IMG/VR virus record: IMGVR_UViG_3300025030_000241 | Coordinates: 1 to 39,995 of that record | Length of the DNA: 39,995 bases | Origin: a virus | Strand: one strand, 5' to 3' | Part shown: in pieces, positions 7,937 through 39,719 of the stretch | Layout: every line of letters starts with the position of its first letter | Numbering within the stretch: position 1 is the stretch's first letter | Program-made: the position numbers and the translations under genes | The notes under the pieces: generated by a model | Database searches by the model: none | Seen by the model: only the letters and a program-made list of their open reading frames with translations | What the model was told of the DNA's origin: nothing

Positions 7937-8769
7937 TAATTTCTGCTATGCGCGGGCTCGGAGATTCCATATATCAACGGGCTTTCGTCCGAGAGATCCC
8001 GAAGCCGGTCTGGATCGATACTCCTTGGCCGGAACTTTATGAAGACATCCCCGGCGTCAACTTCGTCAAGCCGGTCACCAAGCTCAGGACGCAGGCGAAG
8101 AGCGCAGCAAAGAGCGGTGTCAAGTGGGTGCCGCAACCGCGCGGGCCGGTAACACAGATCAGCTACGGCAACATCGGCATCATTCCGGGGATGCAGCGGA
8201 GGTTCAGAGTTAAGCCACAGGCCTTTGACCTCCCCGATTTTGGACCGCCGCCAGTTGCCGGAAAATACATCGTTGTTCGGCCCTCCACGATCCGCGCTGA
8301 ATGGCATGCCGAGTCCCGGAACCCGCTACCGGAATACATCGTTCAGGCGGCGGACGCGATGAGGGCCAAGGGGTACACGGTCGTTTCGGTGGCCGACCTT
8401 GAAGACGGTAAGGAATGGCTCGCAGGAGATGCACCGCAAGCCGACATCTGCTACCACAAGGGCGAGCTGGGAATAAAAGACCTGATGGCCCTCGTTCAAG
8501 GCGCATCGGCGGTGATTGGGGGGATTGGCTGGCTTCTCCCTGCTGCAGTGGCTTACAGAGTGCCGGCCTGGATCATTTGCGGCGGCTGGGGAATGTTCAA
8601 CTCGCCGGAGAAGCTGACCGCGCCACCAATGGACCTTAGCAACCTGACTTTCGCGGTGCCTGACAACTTCTGTTTGTGCTCCGCGAACAACCACAAGTGT
8701 GACAAGAGGATTTCCGACTATGCTGCCAAACTTGCCCGATGGGCTGAAAAATTCCCTGCTGTGGTCTGA
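7933..8769 (+). CDS. Glycosyltransferase, GT9/heptosyltransferase-like
   Basis: A 278-aa GT-B-type enzyme. The N-terminal ISAMRGLGDSIYQRAFVREI segment matches the GLGD loop of GT9 sugar transferases. The C-terminal VQGASAVIGGIGWLLPAAVAYRVPAWIICGGWG corresponds to the donor-binding region, although the usual His of that motif is replaced by Trp. It starts at an ATGA overlap with the previous gene and lies within the connector genes together with a methyltransferase. A role in glycosylating capsid or tail is likely but inferred; an LPS-modifying role is the alternative. Confidence 0.75.
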   Translation: MIISAMRGLGDSIYQRAFVREIPKPVWIDTPWPELYEDIPGVNFVKPVTKLRTQAKSAAKSGVKWVPQPRGPVTQISYGNIGIIPGMQRRFRVKPQAFDLPDFGPPPVAGKYIVVRPSTIRAEWHAESRNPLPEYIVQAADAMRAKGYTVVSVADLEDGKEWLAGDAPQADICYHKGELGIKDLMALVQGASAVIGGIGWLLPAAVAYRVPAWIICGGWGMFNSPEKLTAPPMDLSNLTFAVPDNFCLCSANNHKCDKRISDYAAKLARWAEKFPAVV

Positions 8770-31116: not shown

Positions 31117-31288
31117 AGGAAATACCGGGAGCCCGCAGCGGTAATAGTGTCGCGAGGGGCCGTATTGGACAACGACCGGCAGTCGGAGAAGTGCGGAGCC
31201 GATGGAGACCGGCGAGAGTGGTCAGCCCCAATAACTTGCAGTCAAAAGGGTGAGGGGCGAGACCACACCACATTCAAAGGAGAATGCC
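31117..31288 (+). ncRNA. Candidate structured leader RNA
   Basis: This 172-bp gap is G-rich and has no convincing gene. Complementary blocks are fully nested: GGGGC (31156-31160) with GCCCC (31225-31229), GACC (31174-31177) with GGTC (31220-31223), TCGG (31183-31186) with CCGA (31199-31202). An alternative CCGG/CCGG pairing (31176-31179 with 31209-31212) competes with the second stem, as in a switch. It ends before AAAGGAG of the RdgC-like gene. No known riboswitch class recognised. Confidence 0.4.
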
Positions 31289-32449
31289 ATGGGCATCTTA
31301 TCGAATACCGTCACCATCTGCCACTTCCGCGTTCAAGGGGAGCTTGCCTCCGGACAGGACTTTTTCGACGTCGCACCGCAGGCACTCGCCGCCAACGCTT
31401 TCCGCCCCATCGACGACACTGCCGACGAACTCTCACTCGGCTGGGTCCACCTGGACGATTCGAAAGAGCACGACTTCCCGGCCGCCGCCTGCTGGCGCGA
31501 CAGCTACCTCATGTTTTCCTTGCGCCGCGATCAACGCAAGATTCCTGCCGCTCTCCTGAAGGAACATATGGAGAAGGCGCAAGAAGCTTTCCTTGCGGAA
31601 AACCCCGGCTTCACCCGGGTCCCGAAGCAAAAACGGGAGGAAATCAAAGAGGCCGTGCGCCTGAAACTGCTTTCAAAGACTCTGCCGACTCCTGCCATCT
31701 ACGACGCTGTGTGGGACACGCAGAACAACCTGGTCACCTTCACGACCATCTCGACCAAGACGGTGGAGCTGTTTCAGGATCATTTCAAGAAGACCTTCGA
31801 GGGGCTGCGGCTTACTCCCTTCATCCCCTACCACCGGGCCATGATGGTTACCCCAGACTGCAACGCTCTTGCCGCAGCAAACAAAGCCTCCGGCGACAGC
31901 TACCTGGAGTTGATCCAGGGGAACCAGTGGCTCGGCTTCGACTTCATGCTGTGGCTGCTTCATCAGACCATGAACGGAAACGCCGAATACAGGGTGAATC
32001 AGCCGGGACCCACAGTCTTGGGGGATCAGTTCATCGGCTACATAGACGACAAGGTCGTGCTCTGCGGCGAAGGGGAAGGCGGTACGCAGATGATCACGGT
32101 CAACGGCCCCCAGGATCGTTTTAGGGAAGTGAAAAGCGCCCTACAGGGAAAGAAGCAGATCGTCGAGGCGACAATCCACCTGGAGGCCGAGGATGGGAAG
32201 TGGTGCCTCACCCTCAAAGGTGATGTTTTTCACTTCGCTGGATTCAGCTCCCCGGCGGTGAAGATCGAGAAGGACAACACTGTCGACGAGCAGATGGAGC
32301 GCGAGGCCGTGTTCTTTGAGCGCATGCTGCTGCTGGAAAAGGGGTTGCAGCTGTTCGACTCCCTCTTTGCCACGTTCCTGGTTGAGCGACTTGGCGGAGA
32401 CTGGGGCTTTATCTCGACCGACATTAACGAGTGGATCAACGAAGGATGA
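31289..32449 (+). CDS. RdgC-like recombination-associated protein
   Basis: A 386-aa protein. The order of features matches RdgC: an N-terminal strand followed by LSLGWVHLDD, the CWRDSYLMFSLRRDQRKIPAALLKEH segment, a charged helix (KQKREEIKEAVRLKLLSKTLP), then YDAVWDTQNNLVTFTTISTKTVELF. RdgC forms a ring on DNA and limits RecA. Somewhat longer than the bacterial protein (about 300 aa), with a helical C-terminal part. ATG 31289 follows AAAGGAG. Phage copies may tune recombination or replication. Confidence 0.82.
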   Translation: MGILSNTVTICHFRVQGELASGQDFFDVAPQALAANAFRPIDDTADELSLGWVHLDDSKEHDFPAAACWRDSYLMFSLRRDQRKIPAALLKEHMEKAQEAFLAENPGFTRVPKQKREEIKEAVRLKLLSKTLPTPAIYDAVWDTQNNLVTFTTISTKTVELFQDHFKKTFEGLRLTPFIPYHRAMMVTPDCNALAAANKASGDSYLELIQGNQWLGFDFMLWLLHQTMNGNAEYRVNQPGPTVLGDQFIGYIDDKVVLCGEGEGGTQMITVNGPQDRFREVKSALQGKKQIVEATIHLEAEDGKWCLTLKGDVFHFAGFSSPAVKIEKDNTVDEQMEREAVFFERMLLLEKGLQLFDSLFATFLVERLGGDWGFISTDINEWINEG

Positions 32450-32889
32450 TCAGCTTTTTCGTTCCGGGTGTTCCCGTCCCTAAAGGTTCGGCCAAGGGCT
32501 TTTACAACAAGGCCCTTGGCCGGGTGATGATCATCCAGGACAACGCGGACAAGCAAAAACCCTGGGCGTCGATGATAGCTGTCGTCGCTCAGGAGCACTT
32601 TGCTAAGCCTATCGAGGGTCCGGTGATGATCAGCTTGGCCTTCAAAATGCCGCGGCTGAAAGGGCATTTTGGGAGCGGAAAGAATGCGGGTGTCTTGAAG
32701 GCATCCGCGCCCATCTACCACATAGTAAAACCTGACGTTGATAAGTTGGAACGCTGCATTTACGACGCTTTGACGGGCATAGCCTGGAAGGATGATTGCC
32801 AGGTAGCAGTGGTTGCTCACAAAAGCAAGAAGTACGGCGACAAGCCCGGCGTGTTCATCAAGATCAACGAGATAAAGGAGGGGTTTTGA
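32446..32889 (+). CDS. RusA-like Holliday junction resolvase
   Basis: A 147-aa protein. N-terminal SFFVPGVPVPKGS is the RusA start pattern; the acidic active site lies in KPDVDKLERCIYDALTGIAWKDDCQV (Asp97, Asp99, Asp116/117), and the basic stretch HKSKKYG follows. It resolves four-way junctions made during phage replication and recombination. ATG 32446 overlaps the previous stop. Confidence 0.9.
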   Translation: MISFFVPGVPVPKGSAKGFYNKALGRVMIIQDNADKQKPWASMIAVVAQEHFAKPIEGPVMISLAFKMPRLKGHFGSGKNAGVLKASAPIYHIVKPDVDKLERCIYDALTGIAWKDDCQVAVVAHKSKKYGDKPGVFIKINEIKEGF

Positions 32890-33548
32890 AAGCCTACATC
32901 ATAGACACAGAGACTACCAACGCCGAGGACACCGCCGAGATCATCGAGGCCGCATGGATCGACCAGGACAGCGGCGAAGAATACTGCGAACGATTCCTCC
33001 CTGCCGGCCCCATCAGCTTCGGAGCCATGGCCACGCACCACATCATGCTTCAGGACCTCGAAGCCTGCCGCGCGTCTTCCGAGTTCAGCATGCCGCCGGC
33101 GGATTACATCATCGGTCACAACGTCGACTTCGACTGGAGGGTGATGGGGAACCCGAACGCGAAGAGGATCTGCACCCTGGCGCTTTGCCGCTATCTCTGG
33201 CCGGAGCTGGACAGCCACAAGCAGGGCGCGATGATGTACTTCCTTTTTGGTGCCGACGCTCAGGAGCAGGTGAAGCTTGCTCACTGCGCCCTAGACGATG
33301 TTCGCATGTGCCAGCAGATCCTACACGCCTGTGTTGGCGAACTGATCCAGCGCGGCATCTGCTGCGACACTTGGGAGGATATCTGGCAGGCCTCGGAGAT
33401 CGCCCGGAAGCCTACCGTGATGTCGTTTGGTAAATGGAAAGGCACCGCTGTCAAGGACGTACCACGCGACTACATGCGCTGGTATCTCGGCCAAACCGAG
33501 ACGGACGAGTACATGCGGAAGGCTTTTCTGGAGGTGATGCAACCATGA
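32886..33548 (+). CDS. DEDDh 3'-5' exonuclease, ExoX-like
   Basis: A 220-aa exonuclease. Exo I is IIDTETT (Asp7, Glu9), Exo II is GHNVDFDW and Exo III is HCALDDVRMC, giving the DEDDh set. The C-terminal 45 residues (FGKWKGTAVKDVPRDYMRWYL) are the ExoX-type tail domain. TTG start at 32886 with AAAGGAGGGG upstream and TTGA overlap with the resolvase gene; upstream in-frame starts lie inside that gene. Likely works in recombination or proofreading with RusA. Confidence 0.85.
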   Translation: MKAYIIDTETTNAEDTAEIIEAAWIDQDSGEEYCERFLPAGPISFGAMATHHIMLQDLEACRASSEFSMPPADYIIGHNVDFDWRVMGNPNAKRICTLALCRYLWPELDSHKQGAMMYFLFGADAQEQVKLAHCALDDVRMCQQILHACVGELIQRGICCDTWEDIWQASEIARKPTVMSFGKWKGTAVKDVPRDYMRWYLGQTETDEYMRKAFLEVMQP

Positions 33549-34960: not shown

Positions 34961-34992
34961 ATTTCAAATGCTGTGTGGCGGAGGAACCAACC

Positions 34993-35373
34993 ATGAGCAC
35001 ATTTTATCATCCGAGCTTTGTTGACGATAAGGCCCACCTTTGCGACAACTGCAAAATAGATGATGGCAGGGCTACGCTCTATTGGAAGGAGTCGAATTTT
35101 GACCTCTGCCACGAGTGCTTGCTCCAGTTGACCAAATACCACGTTGACCCGCTACTTAAAGCGAGTGAATCGCTGACAGTTAGGCGCATGGCAATACCTG
35201 AGTCTCTACGAAACGAGATATTTGACCGCGATGGCAACAAGTGCATCATGTGCAATTCCACCAGCCACCTCCAGTTGGATCACATAAAACCTTTTTCCCG
35301 TGGAGGTCGAACTGTAAAGGAAAACCTTCAGACTCTTTGTGCGCCTTGCAACCTCAAGAAAAGGGCATCGTAA
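34993..35373 (+). CDS. HNH endonuclease with N-terminal zinc site
   Basis: A 126-aa protein. N-terminal Cys pairs (CDNC, CHEC at about residues 17-42) suggest a zinc ribbon. The C-terminal HNH fold is clear: RDGNKCIMCNSTSHLQLDHIKPFSRGGRTVKENLQTLCAPCN, with the DH dyad and two CxxC knuckles. Start ATG has GGAGGAAC. It is the first gene after the replication-module promoter and overlaps the initiator gene (TAATG). Could be a homing-type nuclease or a replication-linked nickase. Confidence 0.82.
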   Translation: MSTFYHPSFVDDKAHLCDNCKIDDGRATLYWKESNFDLCHECLLQLTKYHVDPLLKASESLTVRRMAIPESLRNEIFDRDGNKCIMCNSTSHLQLDHIKPFSRGGRTVKENLQTLCAPCNLKKRAS

Positions 35374-36092
35374 TGCAGGACGGTTACATAAAACTCCACA
35401 GGTGCATCCTTGACAGTGGATGGGCGCGGCATCCTGATTATATGGCGGTCTGGGTTTACTGCCTTTTGCGCGGGAACTATAAGCCCGCAGATGTGGTGAC
35501 TAAATGGGGTGGCGTGGTCAAGCTTGAAGCTGGCCAATTTATTACGTCCCGCGAGCAAATAAGTTTGAACACTGGAGTGCAAGAATCCAAGGTCGAAAGA
35601 ATCCTAAAACACTTCAAAAATGAACAGCAGATTGAACAACAGAATAGAGGAAAATTCCGAATAATATCAATACTTAACTGGCGTAAATACCAAGTAAGTG
35701 AACAGGAAAATGAACAACAGGTGAACAACACGCGAACAACAGGTGAACAACAGGTGAACACAGATAAGAAGGTAAAGAAAGAAAAGAAGAAGAAAGAAGA
35801 AAGGGCTGTAGCCGACCTCCTTCCGATCTGCAAAGCCTGGAAGGCCTACATCGAAATGCGGAAGAAGATCCGCAAGGACGCATCACCAAAAGCTATGGAG
35901 ATGGCAGCATCAAAACTTATCGCGATGCAGAAGATGGGGCAAGACCCTGTGGCCATTCTCAACCAGAGCATTTTCAATTCATGGCAGGGGCTTTTTCCGG
36001 TAAAGGCTGAATCGAAGGAATCACATAGACAGGCAGAACAAACGCAGACACTGGACGATCTGAGGGCCAAGGGGCTACTTGATGACGATTAA
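35373..36092 (+). CDS. Replication initiator-like protein (lambda O/DnaD-type position)
   Basis: A 239-aa protein. The N-terminal about 105 residues form a winged-helix-like domain (GYIKLHRCILDSGW, a segment common to phage replication proteins, then LNTGVQESKVERILKHF). A low-complexity Gln/Asn/Thr and Lys/Glu linker follows (about 110-150), then a C-terminal helical domain (AWKAYIEMRKKIRKDASPKAMEMAASKL). The linker DNA holds an 11-bp tandem array, as lambda O carries the origin. The next gene is a DnaB-like helicase, so it probably binds the origin and loads helicase. Confidence 0.78.
   Translation: MQDGYIKLHRCILDSGWARHPDYMAVWVYCLLRGNYKPADVVTKWGGVVKLEAGQFITSREQISLNTGVQESKVERILKHFKNEQQIEQQNRGKFRIISILNWRKYQVSEQENEQQVNNTRTTGEQQVNTDKKVKKEKKKKEERAVADLLPICKAWKAYIEMRKKIRKDASPKAMEMAASKLIAMQKMGQDPVAILNQSIFNSWQGLFPVKAESKESHRQAEQTQTLDDLRAKGLLDDD
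35712..35766 (+). repeat. 11-bp tandem array (candidate replication origin iterons)
   Basis: GAACAA or GAACAC begins at 35712, 35723, 35734, 35745 and 35756, exactly 11 bp apart; three units are GAACAACAGGT. Weaker copies sit at 35622 and 35634. Because 11 is not a multiple of 3 the repeat is not conserved in the protein, so selection acts on DNA. A purine-rich, AT-rich stretch follows to about 35808, suitable for unwinding. This resembles lambda ori inside O. Confidence 0.75.
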
Positions 36093-37353
36093 TTTTGAGG
36101 ACCACGACATAGAGCAGGAATTGATAGGAAACATCGTCAACGACCACAACGCCTACATGGATATTTTTGACATTCTCAGGCCGGATCATTTCGCCTCAAG
36201 GATGGGGGAGGTCTACAAGTCCTACGGCGAGCAGATCCACAAGAAAGAGCCTACCGACTTATCAACCCTTTCTAAGTTGTCTGGTGTCAGTGGTAAAGTC
36301 CTTGCCGAGTGCATGGAAAAGGGGTGGATGAGCGCAAACGTGAAAGCCAAAGCGCGCAAGCTGGTTTCTCTGGCCCACAAACGCCACACCTACCGGGACT
36401 GTCGCAAACTCGTTGCAGAAATGGAAATGCTCGACTCTTCCGAGATTGCCAAGCGGCTCTCAGACATGGCTGCAAGTGTTGCCATGAACAACCAGACGAA
36501 GCACATCTATGACGGTAGGCAGCTCGCGCAAAGGTTGACCACGATCATGGAGCGCCGTCACGAGAACAAAGGACGAATGGAAGGGATTATGAGTGGGTAC
36601 AGGAGCCTCGACAGAGTTATCCGAGGGTTCCGCCCCAAGCGCATGACGGTTATCGCTGCGGCTACTGGGTTTGGCAAGTCCACCCTGGCGCTAAACCTCC
36701 TGAGCAATATTGCCATGGCTGGGCATAAGGCACTTTTTATCAGCAACGAGAATGACGTCGACGACAACCTGGACCGGCTGCACGGCATTCAGTCTGGTCT
36801 GGAACTCCGCACCATTGAAAAGGCAGGTGATGAGGTTTGGGGTCCAACTTGCAAGTTTGCCGAGCATCTTTATCAGAGTAACCTTTTCATATCCGACAAC
36901 TCCCCTAGGACCATAGATGAGGTGGTAGGCACCATTAACCGCCATGTGGTGCAGCATGGGGTGGAAATTGTCTTTGTCGATTACATCGGCGAGATAATGG
37001 TCGACTCTGACAACCGAGAGACTGAAGAGGCAAGGCTTGCTCGGTTTGCTCAAAGGCTGGTTGACTGCGCCAAGTCAATGGGGATTCATGTTGTCGTTAT
37101 GGCGCAACTCAACCGGCAAGGAAACGCAAAAGGCAGGCCCGGGAAGAGTGATCTGGCGTCATGTTTTAAGATTGTGATGAAGGCGCACAGCCTTCTGATG
37201 TTTTGGCAAGACGAGAACAAGCAGGACATCCTCACAGTAGAGAAGAACCGCCAAGGACCGCCCAACGTTGACCTCTGCGCCGATTACAACCGTGCCACCC
37301 AGCGCATCATCATCAACGGTTATCTTGGAGAAAGAGTGTCCAGTGAAATTTGA
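36082..37353 (+). CDS. Replicative DNA helicase, DnaB-like
   Basis: A 423-aa helicase. The N-terminal domain (DIEQELIGNIVNDHNAYMDIFDILRPDHF) matches DnaB N-terminal helices. The RecA-like motor has Walker A ATGFGKST (194-201), Walker B-like VDYIGEIM and the H3/H4 area MAQLNRQGN with a later KNRQGPPNV. Start ATG 36082 (a TTG lies just before it) overlaps the initiator gene by 11 bases. It unwinds the fork at the phage origin. Confidence 0.9.
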   Translation: MTINFEDHDIEQELIGNIVNDHNAYMDIFDILRPDHFASRMGEVYKSYGEQIHKKEPTDLSTLSKLSGVSGKVLAECMEKGWMSANVKAKARKLVSLAHKRHTYRDCRKLVAEMEMLDSSEIAKRLSDMAASVAMNNQTKHIYDGRQLAQRLTTIMERRHENKGRMEGIMSGYRSLDRVIRGFRPKRMTVIAAATGFGKSTLALNLLSNIAMAGHKALFISNENDVDDNLDRLHGIQSGLELRTIEKAGDEVWGPTCKFAEHLYQSNLFISDNSPRTIDEVVGTINRHVVQHGVEIVFVDYIGEIMVDSDNRETEEARLARFAQRLVDCAKSMGIHVVVMAQLNRQGNAKGRPGKSDLASCFKIVMKAHSLLMFWQDENKQDILTVEKNRQGPPNVDLCADYNRATQRIIINGYLGERVSSEI

Positions 37354-39256: not shown

Positions 39257-39420
39257 GCGAGCAAAAGGAACAGCCTATCGAATACGTGGTCGATATATCA
39301 AAAACATTGTGGGCTGCGTCGGTAAGATTGAGATCGGAAATGGACAAAATCAAGGCCGAGCTGGTGGACTCTCTTCCTGTTTGGGGTCAGCGCCTTGCTA
39401 GGGGTTCCCGTTGCCGGTAA
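39253..39420 (+). CDS. Small hypothetical protein upstream of HNH
   Basis: A 55-aa protein, helical in the middle (DISKTLWAASVRLRSEMDKI) and basic at the end. It is coupled by ATGA to the gene before and overlaps the TTG start of the HNH gene by 10 bases. No family recognised. Confidence 0.55.
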   Translation: MSEQKEQPIEYVVDISKTLWAASVRLRSEMDKIKAELVDSLPVWGQRLARGSRCR

Positions 39421-39719
39421 AGCCGGGGACGCACAAGCCAGCGAGGCCGCAGACCAAGAAACATCTGGCACCGGAAACAGCGAGAGGCAAGACTGCTGAG
39501 CGAGGCTATGGGGCAAAGTGGCAGAGGACCAGGGCGGCATACCTCAAGGCGCATCCGTTGTGCGTTCATTGCGAGAGGCAGGGCAAGATAAAGCTGGCGA
39601 CCGACCTTGATCACATCGTGCCTCACAGAGGTAACATGGTGCTGTTCTGGGATATCAAGGGGAACGTGCAAGGTTTATGCAAGCCTTGCCACTCGCGCAA
39701 GACGGCGAAAGGAGAATAG
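39411..39719 (+). CDS. HNH endonuclease of the packaging module
   Basis: A 102-aa HNH nuclease: ERGYGAKWQRTRAAYLKAHPLCVHC, then ATDLDHIVPHRG, then NVQGLCKPCHSRKTAKG. These are the conserved motifs of the HNH proteins next to terminase genes in HK97-like cos phages, where they help cut cos DNA. TTG start with AGGGG upstream. If the window ends join, it lies about 0.3 kb upstream of terS, with one tiny gene between. Confidence 0.9.
   Translation: MPVKPGTHKPARPQTKKHLAPETARGKTAERGYGAKWQRTRAAYLKAHPLCVHCERQGKIKLATDLDHIVPHRGNMVLFWDIKGNVQGLCKPCHSRKTAKGE

Follow-up and report, generated by a model that had tools for sequence, protein, structure and literature searches.

The locus studied here raises the question of what a short tandem repeat is doing in the middle of a phage gene that appears to code for a replication initiator, and whether it could mark the place at which replication of the virus begins. 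The window, by which we mean the whole stretch of 39,995 nucleotides that was analyzed (positions 1 to 39,995 of IMG/VR virus record IMGVR_UViG_3300025030_000241), carries the repeat in a gene that an earlier note on this DNA had read as an initiator, followed directly by a gene for a DnaB-like helicase. Both assignments were supported by profile matches, and the features concerned are as follows.

35373..36092, + strand, initiator or replisome-organizer gene, 239 aa (phrog_2514, E=4e-33; phrog_186, E=1e-19; phrog_678, O-like, E=2e-18)
35400..35693, + strand, winged-helix DNA-binding domain, about residues 10-107 (AlphaFold pLDDT 94-98; relatives)
35583..35621, + strand, recognition helix, residues 71-83 (AlphaFold model; divergence there best tracks iteron divergence)
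35766..35975, + strand, helical C-terminal module, residues 132-201 (the part swapped between relatives)
36082..37353, + strand, DnaB-family replicative helicase (PF03796, E=3e-34; PF00772, E=5e-10; phrog_19, E=4e-62)

The helicase gene starts at 36082 and overlaps the end of the initiator gene at 36092 by 11 bp, with no gene in between. The PHROG families matched by the initiator protein are named DnaD-like helicase loader and O-like replication initiation, and in the AlphaFold model the protein has wing strands at residues 87-92 and 95-100, a disordered linker at about residues 110-131 and a helical C-terminus. Pfam returned only sub-threshold matches: Phage_rep_org_N (PF09681) scored 15.4 bits against a gathering cut-off of 23.3, which the window protein thus fails, and 11 of 30 relatives matched it at E<=0.01. 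Phage_rep_O (PF04492), the lambda O family, gave no match at E<=1 for the window protein and matched 1 of the 30 relatives at 0.005. When the structure of the N-terminal domain was compared, 4pt7 appeared at E=0.006 (TM 0.53) amid other winged helix-turn-helix (wHTH) proteins and no match reached E<=0.001; a weak fold similarity was seen to 4pt7, 4pql and 5kbj, which are of the RepA_N type, and the window protein had no sequence match to RepA_N (PF06970).

The repeat itself and the DNA around it can be divided into the following elements.

35711..35765, + strand, main array of five 11-bp iterons, the last partial, encoding the disordered linker (pLDDT about 50 or less)
35699..35710, + strand, weak extra iteron TGAACAGGAAAA at a 12-bp step (repeat family D2)
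35621..35643, + strand, upstream iteron pair TGAACAGCAGA and TGAACAACAGA in wing-coding DNA, starting at 35621 and 35633 with a 12-bp step (family codon-choice test)
35644..35698, + strand, AT-rich spacer between the iteron groups, possibly an unwinding element (30% GC, the neighbourhood minimum)
35762..35803, + strand, purine-rich and A-rich stretch 3' of the array, candidate unwinding element (sequence; same layout in relatives)

Five units at exact 11-bp steps in linker-coding DNA, as had been described before, were confirmed at 35711 (TGAACAACAGG), 35722 (TGAACAACACG), 35733 (CGAACAACAGG), 35744 (TGAACAACAGG) and 35755 (TGAACACAGAT, partial). Tandem Repeats Finder placed the array at 35711-35760, with a period of 11, 4.5 copies and a score of 86, the highest in the window (the runner-up scores 44), and the best 44-base stretch had 36 of 44 period-11 matches against a maximum of 29 in 200 dinucleotide shuffles searched over the whole window at periods 8-30. 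The period is indeed out of step with the codons, as the unit starts fall in phases 2, 1, 0, 2 and 1 of the reading frame. The extent given previously held for the main array and missed the copies at 35699 and at 35621 and 35633. Likewise, the AT/purine-rich stretch said to follow the array was found as a purine-rich one at 35762-35803, whereas the local AT maximum lies 5' of the array, at 35630-35719 (30% GC), between the upstream pair and the main array. In 103 relatives, the 10-40 bp that follow the array had an AT content of 75-78% and a purine content of 75-77%, compared with about 62% and 59% around. No second iteron cluster resembling oriR of SPP1 was found within the window, no clear origin signal was seen in the GC skew across the 40 kb, and a literature search for the exact repeat gave no match.

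To what extent the array is a property of the gene family was addressed by two kinds of search. A DNA-only search with two adjacent units matched 18 viral contigs, in 17 of which the match lay at the same place of the same kind of gene. Thirteen divergent N-terminal domains gave a profile that varied too much for searching, and in its place a more closely related set and single seeds served; the protein search, made without the linker and with further seeds, gave 313 loci carrying the N-terminal domain. L114, which by sequence is among the nearest relatives, belongs to a Geobacteraceae MAG. Dereplication by ungapped identity left 117 members, and when redone with proper alignment it left 115 (<=85% N-terminal identity), with results that held. 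The earlier note had said that relatives with the protein and without the repeats would count against its reading, and the opposite was found: an 11-bp score of at least 0.75 at the same place in 101 of 115 relatives, with 11 or 22 as the best period in 98. At a stricter identity cut of 60%, 45 of 52 relatives passed, and other coding segments of the same contigs reached a score of 0.75 in 4 of 2,363 cases (0.17%). Five full units are the commonest array length (73 of 107), and the array sequences vary by lineage (TGAACAACAAG, GGACAACAAAC, GTCCAGCAAAT, GACCAGCAAAC, CACCAACCAAA, TACCAGCAGAT and others); the proportion of TGAAC-type iterons should not be read as the one found in nature, since the protein-search patterns favour one type of recognition helix together with the peptide EQQI. 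A clear 11-bp array was absent in 10 of 117 relatives. Three members without one are L128, which has a 12-bp in-frame repeat, L133, in which the array is broken, and L105, and the origins of these have possibly decayed or relocated.

Among family members, more than 30 clusters of C-terminal modules can be told apart. L034 shares 82% identity with the window initiator (35373-36092) in the N-terminal domain and has an unrelated C-terminus, so that the N-terminal domain and the array behave as a cassette. In the members that could be scored, the downstream gene products included DnaB-like (21), DnaC-like (20) and HK022 P-like (8) proteins.

Origins within initiator genes are already known, and the closest precedents are not those that had been proposed at first. 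The protein gp38 (G38P) of Bacillus phage SPP1 is reported to bind the oriL direct repeats, which lie within its gene (gene 38), at nanomolar affinity and to start replication together with gp39 and gp40 (PMC6316719). With our family profile, gene 38 gave E=8e-22 when scaled to 50,000 sequences. Like the window, it combines a homologous N-terminal domain with 11-bp repeats in linker-coding DNA (GAAACGACAGA, GAAACGACACG, AAAAAGACACG, AAAAAGACACA), an AT-rich stretch 3' of the repeats and a DnaB-family helicase gene nearby. SPP1 differs in its GAAACGACACG-like iterons, in the loader gp39 placed between initiator and helicase, and in a second origin, oriR, neither of which was seen in the window. 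For Salmonella phage L, an origin consisting of six 11-bp repeats within gene 18 was put forward on sequence only (PMC8022706). In ST64T, a close relative of phage L belonging to the same virus species, we found 11-bp repeats in gene 18 (TGTCCAACGGA), and gp18 matched the profile at 1e-24. Both resemble the window in the in-gene 11-bp repeats and in the order of initiator (gene 18) and DnaB-type helicase (gene 12), and differ in their iteron sequence and in an array that is split by a spacer. The O proteins of HK022, HK75 and HK620 are also family members; HK022 and HK75 have 11-bp linker repeats (TACCAGCAGAT, TTGTCCAACGG) with a P or helicase gene next, although the HK022-type O has another iteron sequence and two sub-arrays with a spacer between them. 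Arrays of 11 bp were likewise seen in PVL orf46 and phiAT3 ORF30, and in Anoxybacillus phage A403 the best period was 22 bp. As SPP1 gp38, ST64T gp18 and HK75 O all match one N-terminal profile and the window protein shares the homologous winged-helix domain, sequence comparison places the window initiator with the group of SPP1 gp38, phage L gp18 and HK022 O.

The analogy first drawn with lambda O stands for in-gene iterons of a differing unit length, but SPP1 gp38 and phage L gp18 are closer precedents. A further difference is that lambda P acts as a loader and not as a helicase. In lambda, too, the iterons lie within the O gene itself, near its middle, and an AT-rich region comes after them (PMC7466680), a layout shared with the window, yet the four lambda iterons are about 18-20 bp long (PMC8022706) compared with 11 bp here, and the window protein has no match to the lambda O family. 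In plasmid pSK41, the N-terminal domain of Rep binds repeats in the middle of the rep gene, where the encoded linker can be dispensed with (PMC5703833). RepA_N initiators of this kind resemble the window in their mid-gene repeats, with a weak similarity in the fold of the N-terminal domain that falls short of E<=0.001, and differ in belonging to a plasmid rather than a phage and in lacking a sequence match. RepA_N plasmids and lambda O operate in a similar way, yet by the tests made they fall outside this initiator family. In Staphylococcus phage 80alpha, the origin is presumed to lie within the gene for the initiator gp20, whose deletion was not complemented in trans (PMC5499656). As a family relative gp20 was rejected, the family profile giving no match, and unlike the window its repeats are of 15/30 bp.

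Taken with the layout of the locus, the array very probably constitutes the core of the phage replication origin, with iterons bound by the winged-helix protein of the surrounding gene and a helicase loaded thereafter. We infer array binding, melting, helicase loading and origin activity in this phage along the following lines. The encoded protein would bind the 11-bp iterons through its winged-helix domain and, as 11 bp is about one helical turn, we propose that several copies could align on one face of the DNA. The pair in wing-coding DNA, about 70-80 bp upstream, might serve as outlying sites. The bound complex would then put strain on the adjoining DNA, whether AT-rich or purine-rich, and the DnaB-like helicase, product of the following gene, would be handed on by the C-terminal module. 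The array may be located in linker-coding DNA because a disordered linker can take any hydrophilic sequence; CAACAA-like DNA, as in the iteron core, gives polar residues in all three frames. Regulators are common among wHTH proteins, and autoregulation is a further function of many plasmid iterons, so the iterons here might be thought of as an operator at which the protein regulates its own transcription, with the origin elsewhere. We regard this as improbable, given that the array lies mid-gene, about 340 bp past the start codon, that an AT/purine-rich stretch follows it on the 3' side as in known origins, and that the related SPP1 gp38 is reported to be active at an in-gene origin. The iterons may have a double role, as operator and as origin.

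It had been claimed before that the repeat is maintained at the DNA level. The contrary explanation, which we consider very improbable, is that the repeat is a mere protein feature, a low-complexity linker rich in Q, N and T that looks repetitive in DNA. The array does encode a disordered polar linker, and family linkers that were recoded synonymously still retained some 11-bp similarity; but their mean identity at 11 bp was 0.63 compared with 0.84 observed, and 107 of 117 members passed the recoding test at 5%. When periods of 6-30 were tested, only 11 and its multiple 22 were clearly above recoding, all others differing by at most 0.06, and in the window, with the protein fixed, an equal 11-bp score was reached in 0.25% of draws. 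Furthermore, 11 is not divisible by three, and the array covers less than two peptide periods of 33 bp. In members of the TGAAC type, TGA opened 117 of 124 and 108 of 119 units that were out of frame (93%), whereas in-frame units had TGA in 0 of 70 cases and CGA in 53 of 70. The absence of in-frame TGA is required by the open frame; the telling part is that the change is minimal and restricted to the in-frame phase, and in the window the sole in-frame unit, at 35733, is the one in which CGA replaces TGA. This pattern makes sense only when the DNA word is conserved, and it supports, together with the recoding result, that the repeat is maintained as DNA.

The iteron set reaches further upstream than had been thought, into wing-coding DNA. 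The DNA for residues 80-95 carries extra copies that match the lineage's own array, GTCCATC being found with GTCCAGC arrays, AACCATC with AACCAGC and GAACAACAGATTGAACAACAA with TGAACAAC. In non-GAA members, matches to the own array in wing DNA exceeded those in shuffled pairings, and only wing segments clearly exceeded synonymous recoding, whereas segments 5' of the wing did not. At residue 88, Thr was encoded by ACC in 13 of 15 cases (22% background), and Asn was always AAC (42%), Asp always GAC (36%) and Glu always GAA (67%), counts that codon bias inherited by descent can inflate; the bias persisted at 60% dereplication (Thr ACC in 7 of 9). As the codon choice matches the own iterons, the wing appears to be written partly in the predicted binding sites of its own domain.

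Like the wing copies, the recognition helix varies with the iteron. When iteron divergence was compared with protein divergence in pairs of relatives, allowing for the rest of the domain, the partial correlation peaked at 0.32 over residues 72-80 and was 0.35 for the exposed helix face, a value equalled in 0 of 300 permutations and one in which relatedness is controlled only roughly. A smaller second peak was seen at residues 51-65, with values near zero over most of the remaining domain, and the single columns sharing most information with the iteron were R76 and S72 of the recognition helix. A tree-based test on independent pairs gave just 4-6 supported independent contrasts, too few for a decision, which leaves the evidence for covariation strong yet short of proof. 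That the recognition helix covaries with the array points to binding of the array by the protein, as judged from these alignments. We consider it very improbable that the repeats work as an RNA element, or as a recombination hot spot, and not as an origin bound by protein. Although the linker is the exchange site of C-terminal modules in L034, such exchange may come about as a by-product, the covariation favours protein binding, and the RNA-element and hairpin readings were rejected as no Rfam family matched and the array RNA folded no better than shuffles (z=+1.1).

While the in-gene arrangement was known from SPP1 and, as an 11-bp proposal, from phage L, the regularities that extend over the family are the more interesting part. 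It is reasonably likely that we are dealing with a broad and fast-diversifying initiator family under one rule, with 11-bp iterons in linker DNA and copies in wing DNA, in which iteron and helix change together, origin and specificity can be read from sequence, and the N-terminal domain and origin form an exchangeable cassette. No description of the 11-bp rule or of the matching of protein and repeat was found in the literature searched, and the 11-bp rule may have been noticed earlier. An unannotated stretch of a metagenomic phage thereby becomes a testable candidate origin, and what had been separate cases (SPP1 gene 38, phage L gene 18, HK022 O, and Staphylococcus and Lactobacillus phage genes) are joined in one family that shares an 11-bp spacing. 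Should the pairing of helix and iteron prove true, replication specificity and compatibility among phages or satellites could become predictable from sequence, and the helix-iteron code would lend itself to direct testing by swaps in laboratory phages.

Several further observations were made on the repeats and on the surrounding region. Direct repeats of 9 bp (AAGAATGTA-like, encoding KN-x) are often found 3' of the 11-bp array in family linkers, and 9 is the second commonest best period among these linkers. L024, the sole pattern match outside the gene family, was set aside as a family locus, no initiator gene being detected in the part inspected; this phage contig has about 2.5 intergenic copies of the window-type iteron at 8030-8062. 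In the replication and recombination region of the window phage, an RdgC-like protein is encoded at 31250-32446 (PF04381, E=2e-12) and a RusA-type Holliday junction resolvase at 32431-32886 (PF05866, E=1e-16), with an exonuclease-like gene next at 32796-33545 (RNase_T, sub-threshold). Two HNH endonuclease genes are also present, one immediately upstream of the initiator at 34990-35370 and the other close to the end of the window at 39411-39716.
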